Shown: one piece after another, positions 36,271 to 41,118 of the stretch
Layout of the letters: each line of letters opens with the position of its first letter
Numbering within the stretch: position 1 is the stretch's first letter
Assembly (NCBI RefSeq): GCF_000377205.1
Contig: NZ_KB897907.1
Span: 186,001 to 250,000, forward strand
Length of the DNA: 64,000 nt
Reading direction: 5' to 3'
DNA from: Thioalkalivibrio sp. ALJ3
GTDB taxonomy: Bacteria > Pseudomonadota > Gammaproteobacteria > Ectothiorhodospirales > Ectothiorhodospiraceae
Position numbers and translations under genes: made by a program
Notes under the pieces: generated by a model
Told to the model about the DNA's origin: nothing
What the model saw: the letters and a program-made list of their open reading frames with translations, nothing else
The model's database searches: none

Positions 36271-37122
36271 TTGGCTACCCGCGCGGAAGTGGAAAAATTC
36301 CTCGAGCGCCTGCGCTCGGATCTGGAACGTCAGCAGATCGATATCCCGACGCTGCCGGACATCTCCGTGCAGGCGCTGTTCATCGTGCAGGACGATTCCA
36401 GTTCCATCGCCGATCTGGTGAACCTGATCTCTCGTGATACGGCGCTGGCCACGCGGCTGGTGCGCCATGCCAACAGCCCCGCCTATCGGGGACTAAGTCG
36501 CTGTGCAACCATCCGTTCCGCGGTGACCCGCCTGGGGATGGAACGTGCGCGCCAGACCATCATCGCCCTGTCGATGAAAGAGGTGTTTCAGAGCGGCAAC
36601 GACATGATCCGGCAGCGCATGGAGGCGTTGTGGAACCACAGCCTGGAGGTGGCGATCATCAGCTACCTGCTGGCCCGCCGGCATCCCCATCTGGACCCGG
36701 ACACCGCCCTGCTCGCAGGCCTGGTGCACGACATCGGCATGATCCCGATCCTGCGCCGTGCGGAGAAGACACCGGAGATCTACGAGGACCCGCGTGCCCT
36801 GCAGGCGGCGGCGGATGCTGCGCATGTCGCGATCGGCCGCGCGATGCTGAAGTACTGGAATTTCGAGCCCGACATCATCCGCGCGGTCGCCGATCACGAG
36901 AATCTCCAGCGCGAGTCAGAGGCCGAAACCCCCATCAGCTACAGCGACATCGTGCAGGCCGCGAACATCGAAAGCCACGCCGGCACTCGGCACTACCTGG
37001 CCCACATCGACCGTGAGGGGGTCGCCGCATTGCGTCGTCTAGCCCCGCGTTCGCCTCGCCGCGAACTGGAATGGGAAAACGACGCGATCGGGCTGGAACA
37101 CGTCAACCAGATCATCGAATAG
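36271..37122 (+). CDS. HDOD-domain signalling protein
   Basis: 283 residues, with a TTG start after AGGGACAACC. The HDOD domain (about 20-230) contains LPDISVQALFIVQDDSSSIA, DTALATRLVRHANSPAY and the partly retained HD motif LAGLVHDIGMI; a second His lies in VADHENLQ. HDOD proteins are regulatory relatives of HD-type hydrolases and usually act in signalling. It lies between the RNA ligase partner and the BLUF gene, 84 bases before the latter on the same strand. Enzyme activity uncertain. Confidence 0.87.
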   Translation: MATRAEVEKFLERLRSDLERQQIDIPTLPDISVQALFIVQDDSSSIADLVNLISRDTALATRLVRHANSPAYRGLSRCATIRSAVTRLGMERARQTIIALSMKEVFQSGNDMIRQRMEALWNHSLEVAIISYLLARRHPHLDPDTALLAGLVHDIGMIPILRRAEKTPEIYEDPRALQAAADAAHVAIGRAMLKYWNFEPDIIRAVADHENLQRESEAETPISYSDIVQAANIESHAGTRHYLAHIDREGVAALRRLAPRSPRRELEWENDAIGLEHVNQIIE

Positions 37123-37206
37123 CGGCAAGGCACCACCGCTTCCTGCGGAACGCAGTACCACGCGGATGGTCTTCTCTTACAGTACCCTGCCAGGGATGTT
37201 CCGCTG

Positions 37207-37797
37207 ATGACGCTCCAACTGGTGTATGTCAGCCGCGCGGCCTTCGCGCCCCACGAGCATGAGGCCCTGGGCATCGAGCCCGAGGTCGGGCGGATCTTGC
37301 TGCAATCGCGTCAGAACAACCCGCACGCGGGTATCGTCGGTGCCCTCTATTACGGCGATGGCCACTTTTTCCAGTGTCTGGAGGGCGAACCCGAAGCGGT
37401 GTACGCGACCTTGGAGCGCATCCGGCGCGACCCGCGCCACGAAGAGATCACCGTACTGCGCGAACGTGAGCTGGAACATCCCGGCTTCGGAGAATGGTCG
37501 ATGAAATATGTACCCGCGGCCGGCGAGGTACGCGCCCTGCTGCAGCAATTCGGGCAGCGCCGGTTTGATCCCTTCGGCTTCGACGACCAGCAGATCGAGG
37601 CGATGCTGGATCTCCTGCGCAGCGGCCGTGACACCGAGCTGGAGGCCACACCCGCTACCAGCGAACGCACAGCGTCAACGAACACTGCCCCTCAGGGCGA
37701 CCGTCGGCGCCTGCTGGCCCTGACGGGCTGGGTTGCGGCCGCCGTGGCCGCGGGCATCGCCGGTACGGCGGGCTATCTGTTCCTGGCCGGGGCCTGA
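37207..37797 (+). CDS. BLUF blue-light sensor with C-terminal membrane anchor
   Basis: 196 residues. The BLUF domain (1-100) keeps flavin-site residues Y7, N37/N38 in SRQNNPHAGIVGALYY, Q56 in FFQCLEG, and W97/M99 in GEWSMKYV. A linker follows, then a hydrophobic helix at about 171-193 (ALTGWVAAAVAAGIAG) ending in LAGA. The domain binds FAD and senses blue light; most short BLUF proteins have no such tail. The neighbouring HDOD gene, co-directional and 84 bases upstream, is a candidate partner. Confidence 0.9.
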   Translation: MTLQLVYVSRAAFAPHEHEALGIEPEVGRILLQSRQNNPHAGIVGALYYGDGHFFQCLEGEPEAVYATLERIRRDPRHEEITVLRERELEHPGFGEWSMKYVPAAGEVRALLQQFGQRRFDPFGFDDQQIEAMLDLLRSGRDTELEATPATSERTASTNTAPQGDRRRLLALTGWVAAAVAAGIAGTAGYLFLAGA

Positions 37798-37816: not shown

Positions 37817-39394
37817 CTATTCCCACTCGATGGTGGCGGGAGGCTTGCCGGAGATGTCGTAGGTCACGCGCGAGATGCCGGGGATCTCGTTGATGATGCG
37901 GCGCGAGACGTGGTCGAGGAAGTCGTATGGCAGGTGCGCCCAGCGCGCGGTCATGAAATCGATGGTCTCCACCGCGCGCAGCGCGACCACGTAGTCGTAG
38001 CGCCGGCCGTCGCCCATTACCCCGACCGACTTCACCGGCAGGAATACCGCAAATGCCTGCGAGGTCTTGTCGTACAGATCCGCCTTGCGCAGCTCCTCGA
38101 TGAAGATCGCATCGGCCCGGCGCAGCAGATCGGCGTATTCCTTCTTTACTTCCCCGAGGATGCGTACGCCCAGACCCGGCCCAGGGAACGGATGGCGGTA
38201 GACCATCTCGGTGGGCAGGCCCAGCTCCACGCCGATCTTGCGCACCTCGTCCTTGAACAGTTCGCGCAGCGGCTCCACCAGTCCCAGCTTCATGTTCTCC
38301 GGCAGCCCGCCCACGTTGTGGTGCGACTTGATCACATGCGCCTTGCCGGTCTTGGAGTCGGCTGACTCGATCACGTCCGGGTAGATCGTGCCCTGGGCCA
38401 GCCACTGCACGTTGTTCAGTTTCGCGGCCTCCTCGTCGAACACGTCGATGAACAGCCCGCCGATGACCTTGCGCTTGGCCTCCGGGTCCTCGACCCCAGC
38501 GAGCGCACGCATGAAGCGGTCCTCGGCATCGACGCGGATCACGTTCACGCCCATATGGCGGGCGAAGGTCGCCATCACGTGGTCGCCCTCGCCCTCGCGC
38601 AGCAACCCGGTATCCACGAACACGCAGGTCAGCTGATCGCCGATCGCCTTGTGCAGCAGCGCGCCCACCACCGAGGAGTCGACCCCACCGGACAGACCCA
38701 GCACCACGTGGTCGTCCCCGACCTGTTCGCGCACCCGCGCGGCCATGTCGTCGATGATGTTGTCGGCGGTCCACAGTGCCTCGCAGCCACATATCTCGTG
38801 CAGGAAACGTTCGATGATGCGCTGGCCCTGGGTCGTGTGCGTGACCTCGGGGTGGAATTGCACGCCGTAGAAGCCGCGATCCGGGTCGGCCATACCGGCG
38901 ATCGGCGCGGAATCGGTGGAGGCCATCAGGCGAAAGCCCTCCGGCAGTTCGGTCACGTGGTCGCCATGCGACATCCACACGTCCAGCAGGCCGTAGCCCT
39001 CCGGTGTGGTGTGATCCTCGATGTCGCGCAACAGCGGCGTATGGCCGCGGGCGCGCACCTGGGCATAGCCAAACTCGCGGCGTTCGGACGGCTCGACTCG
39101 GCCACCCAGCTGCGCGGCCATGGTCTGCATGCCGTAGCAGATTCCCAGCACCGGCGAACCCAGCTCGAACACCGCATCCTCGGCGCGTGGCGGGTGGTCA
39201 ACATTCACCGACTCCGGGCCGCCGGACAGAATGATACCGGTGGCGTTGAACGCGCGAATGTCCGCCGCCGGCATGTCCCAGGCGTGCACCTCGGAGTAGA
39301 CCCCGGCCTCGCGTACGCGACGGGCGATCAGCTGGGTGTACTGGGAGCCGAAATCCAGCACCAGAATGCGGTGGGCGTGAAGATCCTGGGTCAT
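37817..39394 (-). CDS. guaA: GMP synthase (glutamine-hydrolysing)
   Basis: 525 residues. The N-terminal class I amidotransferase has the nucleophile in [10 protein letters not shown]. The ATP-pyrophosphatase domain has [14 protein letters not shown], and the C-terminal dimerisation domain ends PPATIEWE. It converts XMP to GMP with glutamine and ATP. It lies 62 bases downstream of guaB; the gap contains GC-rich palindromes (39410-39427) that may attenuate or stabilise the transcript. Convergent with the BLUF gene. Confidence 0.96.
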
Positions 39395-39456
39395 GAGGTC
39401 ATCCGGTATCCCGGCCGGACGGCCGGGGGGCTGTCGGGGATCCGGCCGGGGCCGGG

Positions 39457-41118
<1,662 letters not shown>

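Follow-up and report, generated by a model that had tools for sequence, protein, structure and literature searches.

BLUF photoreceptors follow an established mechanism in which light switches the flavin hydrogen bonds, the C-terminal cap helices move, and protein contacts change; those of the short type are normally regarded as soluble. In the portions of two publications available to us, the mechanism is also treated through BlrP1, PapB, and PixD (PMC8846402, PMC5899715), and a third, likewise available in part, portrays short BLUFs as having a core with variable helices at its flanks (PMC4844311). When the short BLUF protein encoded in the window (the whole 64,000-nucleotide stretch of Thioalkalivibrio sp. 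ALJ3 DNA analyzed here) was compared with solved structures by PDB sequence and fold searches, the nearest among the matches listed was BlsA of Acinetobacter (6w6z/6w72), a short BLUF regulator; also close were PixD-type proteins (Slr1694/Tll0078), which have their fold in common with the window protein. The match with BlsA spanned the domain and cap helices only. Changes in the basic C-terminal part of BlsA, namely deletion of its last 14 residues and the substitutions K144E and K145E, alter its light-regulated motility, the photoresponse of K144E and K145E being unaffected, and the description of BlsA in the accessible portion of that paper mentions no membrane anchor (PMC6695109). PixD is described in excerpts as working through the interaction partner PixE (PMC5899715) and is termed not membrane-integral (PMC5812497). 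PapB, also a short BLUF like the window protein, controls a separate output protein, the EAL protein PapA; the sections of this source at hand mention neither HDOD nor an anchor for PapB-PapA, and state that BLUF does not occur in HD_5 (HD-GYP) proteins (PMC8846402). A single C-terminal hydrophobic helix without an N-terminal signal, as found in the window protein, is described in excerpts on ElaB/YqjD and TssL (PMC5525287, PMC6389858, PMC3426401), but their soluble domains are unrelated, and the anchoring of the window BLUF is predicted from sequence. In the open-access literature searched, no anchored BLUF was named, an earlier report in print being possible, and there was no match for BLUF together with HDOD.

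The first-pass annotation had described a membrane-tethered BLUF photoreceptor next to an HDOD protein, and open reading frames and Pfam matches identified both genes on the forward strand. The upstream gene (36271–37122, 283 amino acids, TTG start) encodes an HDOD-domain protein that matched PF08668 with an E-value of 2.8e-43 and 148.1 bits, above the cut-off of 22.9, and also matched PF01966 (HD, 1.9e-13) and TIGR00277 (HDIG, 35.6 bits). It is followed, after a gap of 84 bp (37123–37206), by the co-directional gene of the short BLUF protein (37207–37797, 196 amino acids, ATG start), which matched PF04940 with an E-value of 1.4e-25 and 89.7 bits, above the curated cut-off of 25, and was the only BLUF match in its own genome. 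A search of the gap for a promoter- or terminator-like site found none, which is compatible with, but not proof of, co-transcription of the two genes.

The BLUF domain occupies residues 1–104 (37207–37518; Pfam match, residues 4–100) and is followed by C-terminal cap helices at residues 105–140 (37519–37626), which AlphaFold2 placed at 105–114 and 127–139. Residues 1–140 of the model were mostly confident and showed the ferredoxin-like BLUF fold, and all 50 PDB matches listed were BLUF proteins. Between the two cap helices lies an F-x-P motif (120–122), of which F120 and P122 were invariant across 14 sequences. The retention of the flavin-site Tyr, Asn, Gln, Trp, and Met, read previously from the sequence, was borne out: Y7, N38, Q56, W97, and M99, which we take to be the residues with these roles at the BLUF flavin site, were all present in the window protein and conserved in 69, 69, 70, 69, and 69, respectively, of the 70 proteins in the clade defined below. 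The window BLUF is predicted to bind flavin and to undergo a photocycle. Beyond the cap helices, a variable and probably disordered linker, residues 141–168 (37627–37710), ends in DRRR; pLDDT was below 50 over residues 143–172, and the model then placed a helix at 169–195 with low confidence.

The last segment of the protein, residues 169–196 (37711–37794), is a predicted transmembrane anchor. It follows R168 and is a 28-residue run in which K, R, D, E, and H do not occur, with a maximum Kyte-Doolittle hydropathy over 19 residues (KD19, on which all transmembrane-tail calls in this work rest) of 1.82, the threshold used here being 1.6. When residues 141–196 were shuffled 20,000 times, the uncharged run was equalled in 91 shuffles and the hydropathy in 49. 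The hydrophobic C-terminal stretch noticed earlier was confirmed, its length being slightly greater than the approximately 23 residues first given. With hydropathy windows that place a hydrophobic helix in its final ~30 residues and no N-terminal signal, the BLUF match beginning already at residue 4, the protein has the makeup of a C-tail-anchored protein.

The absence of the tail from orthologues had been named in advance as evidence against the annotation; a tail with a KD19 of at least 1.6 was found in all 11 intact Thioalkalivibrio orthologues (KD19 1.68–2.64). Distribution of the gene within the genus was patchy, with an intact BLUF in 11 of 30 genomes and a broken one in another (G025). 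In the family to which the Rhodanobacter glycinis genome belongs, 14 unique short BLUFs were read and 10 had the tail; three of the four tailless ones lay outside the clade and one was removed as a near-copy. In the Marinobacter family, a BLUF match occurred in 82 of 163 genomes, and 57 loci were read. The loci of both families had been located by means of a full-length model, tail included (A1), and were mostly its best matches, so the 55 tails among the 57 Marinobacter-family loci are not an unbiased rate; the two exceptions (L216, L217) have basic/aromatic ends. A phylum-wide sample was made with the PF04940 model, which is blind to the tail: it gave a match in 119 of 398 genomes, and, among the matches listed, the 110 regions read contained 105 unique short complete BLUFs, three of them tailed and all three from the same Marinobacter-type branch. 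This agrees with the earlier remark that such a tail is unusual for short BLUF proteins. When 197 non-redundant proteins were placed on a tree, every one of the 50 whose KD19 was at least 1.6 fell into one 51-row group (support 87), the odd row being a tailless tandem copy (L170). One more protein, L039, had a KD19 of 1.58, just below 1.6, and was counted by hand as transmembrane in the set of 51 tails and in the clade counts; since its inclusion enlarges the smallest transmembrane group from 51 to 70 rows, a second origin of the tail is possible. The trees were quick searches on few columns, and the larger clade received a support of 91 in one run and 77 in another. Proteins without a stop at the end, partial domains, and tails of at least 150 amino acids were excluded, as were near-identical rows and tails of <30 or ≥120 amino acids from the tree of the 70-member clade. 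As predicted from hydropathy, the tail is common to a whole branch of short BLUFs in several bacterial groups and is unusual for this type of sensor.

The tails diverge far more than the domains that precede them. In 577 pairs of tailed proteins, chosen for equal domain length and a domain identity below 60%, the domains averaged 53% identity and the last 25 residues 17%. The 51 tails had a minimum KD19 of 1.58 and a median of 2.52, each with an uncharged run of at least 19 residues (median run 21), and the linkers before them had a median KD19 of −0.29 and a maximum of 1.14. Within the close relatives of the window protein, dN/dS was 0.05–0.08 for the domain, 0.11–0.30 for the tail, and 0.16–0.47 for the linker; values for the tail in the other Thioalkalivibrio clade were noisy (0.15 to 2.08). 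Across lineages the predicted anchor is retained for its hydrophobicity and not for its letters, and because the letters diverge while the hydrophobicity persists, the pattern points to selection for a membrane anchor. Net charge on the N-terminal side of the tail was positive in 42 of the 51 proteins, and no more than six residues followed the tail; the positive N-side charge and the short C-terminal remainder fit a tail anchor with its N-terminus inside, which we infer to be the topology of the window BLUF when inserted into the membrane. The annotated membrane tethering, here a predicted anchor, was strengthened by this comparison, with a tail in three lineages whose hydrophobicity is conserved without its sequence. 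Membrane tethering of a functional-looking BLUF protein is well supported as a prediction.

We assign a probability of roughly 0.7 to the window BLUF being a C-tail-anchored short BLUF photoreceptor that acts at the membrane. The BLUF domain would lie on the cytoplasmic side, with helix 169–196 in the inner membrane; a flexible linker and a basic patch precede this helix. On exposure to blue light, the hydrogen bonds of Tyr7, Gln56, and FAD would be rearranged together with the strand carrying W97 and M99, and the cap helices (residues 105–140) would shift and change how the protein contacts a partner located in the membrane or at it, along the lines of PixD-PixE, PapB-PapA, or BlsA and its partners. 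Since the cap helices are linked flexibly to the membrane helix, partner contact would take place at the inner membrane, and anchoring would confine the light switch there. In most lineages the gene for this partner probably lies elsewhere in the genome, and for Thioalkalivibrio the best local candidate would be the HDOD protein encoded upstream. Several observations weigh against the tail-anchor reading: the window tail is Ala/Gly-rich and moderately hydrophobic (1.82 against the median of 2.52 for tailed proteins), its helix was modeled with low confidence, tailless close relatives exist (the L170 copy, L074b, L102b), the distribution in the genus is patchy, and a partner shared across lineages was not seen. 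An anchored BLUF would be a natural blue-light switch already sited at the membrane, and the conservation of the anchor throughout a widespread branch directs the search for outputs toward partners on the membrane side.

In many of the nearest tailless BLUFs, the protein ended, behind a linker, in a few basic residues accompanied by F or W. When this was scored over the last 14 residues as a net charge of at least +2 plus an F or W (this and the MinD-like criterion were both set after the tails had been viewed), it held for 12 of the 20 nearest non-tailed rows and for 23 of 127 further rows (Fisher p 2e-4), ranked with a domain profile built from tailed proteins only, and for 14 of 20 against 21 of 127 when ranked by tree path. 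In the clade of 70, 15 of the 19 members without a transmembrane tail fit the charge-and-aromatic criterion; of the 127 proteins outside, 20 fit it and 0 had a transmembrane tail. These comparisons are partly circular, because the clade is the smallest holding both the tailed and the basic-tailed proteins. The C-terminal tail of MinD is membrane-targeting, and the ends of two sister BLUFs, L075 (...GGFFKRLFGGA) and L076 (...SGLFKRLFGGREKR), resemble that of E. coli K-12 MinD (...EEEKKGFLKRLFGG), in place of which the window BLUF has a hydrophobic helix. A MinD-like regular expression matched 9 of the 19 non-transmembrane clade members and 7 of the 127 proteins outside. Nine later sequences, picked by hand from newly reached genomes for an FxP motif after the domain and all from a single order that was already represented, included six that fit the charge/aromatic criterion (binomial p 8e-4) and one with the MinD-like pattern; the four short BLUFs without the FxP motif that were excluded from this set all failed the criterion (0 of 4). 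The hydrophobic moment separated the tail groups poorly (p 0.048). The tailless close relatives L170b, L074b, and L102b each stand in tandem with a protein whose end is of the membrane type, and when the 147 non-tailed rows were ordered by domain score, L074b came 10th and L102b 17th. Taken as support and not as proof, these data suggest that membrane attachment is the more general trait, of which the tail anchor is one form; less firmly, the terminal sequences imply that the group may use two devices to stay at the membrane. We put slightly below even odds on the tentative extension that a branch of short BLUFs works at the membrane through either a transmembrane anchor, as in the relatives from Thioalkalivibrio, Rhodanobacter, and Marinobacter, or an amphipathic, partly MinD-like C-terminal tail, with a switch that could act on the membrane or be gated by it, for example by light-dependent release of the proteins with amphipathic tails. 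If true, it would describe a membrane-bound class of BLUF receptors.

An alternative assignment of the output, which we regard as unlikely though it survives better than the others, is a split photoreceptor at the membrane in which the BLUF protein binds the adjacent HDOD protein and light-gates its output, such as nucleotide or c-di-GMP binding. The HDOD gene was directly upstream of the BLUF gene in the same order and on the same strand in all 12 BLUF-bearing Thioalkalivibrio genomes, the broken copy counted, and the 84-bp gap without a terminator-like site would suit such a module. PapB-PapA is a precedent for a short BLUF with a separate output protein (PMC8846402, in the part available), and the HDOD protein SadB is the subject of a paper whose accessible text includes a results section headed on c-di-GMP binding (PMC6543031). 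Against it, an HDOD orthologue of at least 69% identity was found in 15 of 30 Thioalkalivibrio genomes, three of which (G039, G021, and G012) had no BLUF match; in G039 the HDOD protein is 95% identical, and in G025 an intact HDOD gene stands beside a truncated BLUF that has lost the flavin Asn (L013). In two other genomes, G040 (L023) and G022 (L024), stop-containing BLUF remnants were observed ~20 kb from the intact gene. Because genomes with a missing or damaged BLUF gene still carry the HDOD gene, the latter appears from gene content to be the stable element in Thioalkalivibrio and BLUF the optional one. The HDOD protein has evolved faster in G025, with 16–19 lineage changes against 5–6 in its siblings and a pairwise dN/dS of 0.14 against 0.05 among siblings. 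The PIN neighbor in G025 was also raised (9–10 changes against 2–6 in the comparisons with six siblings and 4 against 1 in that with the seventh), and the HDOD protein of G039 was not accelerated (2–3 changes against 4–6); the signal in G025 is therefore a hint at most, and the relative-rate check in G025 and G039 did not find a clear HDOD-specific response to BLUF loss. Outside the genus, a search of 44 BLUF neighborhoods of 8–13 kb with the HDOD profile found no HDOD gene (0 of 44), so that the pairing was conserved within Thioalkalivibrio only, and HDOD was rejected as a general BLUF partner. Of the proposed signaling partnership, the co-directional adjacency held throughout the genus and the wider association did not; HDOD as signaling partner is weakly supported overall and possible within Thioalkalivibrio.

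It is improbable, in our estimate, that the tail is a helix serving oligomerization or core packing within a BLUF assembly that is soluble. PixD forms decamers in which C-terminal helices matter in signaling, according to the portion of the source available (PMC5899715), and the Gly/Ala-rich composition and modest hydropathy of the window tail would agree with such a role. The tails of relatives, however, reach a KD19 of 3.17 with the median uncharged run given above, and a low-confidence linker and unconserved tail letters suit lipid better than specific packing. Decay of a dispensable gene in Thioalkalivibrio, with the tail as neutral baggage, is the least probable alternative, since the intact flavin-site residues, the low dN/dS of the domain in close relatives, and the tail in 11 intact orthologues oppose it, despite the confinement of intact genes to 11 of 30 genomes, the truncation in G025, and the loss in G039 beside a nearly identical HDOD gene. 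The C-tail-anchored photoreceptor thus remains the preferred reading.

Clustering of the neighbors of BLUF loci found no partner conserved across lineages. A recurrent context was seen in Marinobacter, with a co-directional dehydrogenase-like gene downstream and permease- and phosphoribosyltransferase-like genes divergent (assigned by eye, without a profile); as a shared partner outside the genus it was rejected, because neither the Rhodanobacter-family genes nor those of Thioalkalivibrio were seen to have this context. At 13 Marinobacter-family loci (L190–L193, L195–L197, L199–L201, L218, L037, and L038; L037 and L190 are from one genome), a dehydrogenase/quinone-oxidoreductase-like gene, the oxidoreductase-like name likewise read by eye, lay 42–176 bp after the anchored BLUF gene and was co-directional with it. 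In the window, the BLUF gene is followed by guaA and guaB in that order (37817–40917), guaA being convergent to BLUF, and the Marinobacter BLUF genes are divergent from purine permease- and adenine phosphoribosyltransferase-like genes, also named by eye; the vicinity of purine genes in both is possibly a coincidence. Tandem BLUF pairs were observed at L170, L074/L103, L102/L104, L082, L362, and L375, and in the L170, L074, and L102 pairs one copy had a membrane-type end and the other did not, which suggests mixed assemblies. Longer BLUFs, with ~140–265 residues past the domain, were found at L367–L369, L378–L380, L383, L384, L108, L110, and L115–L118.
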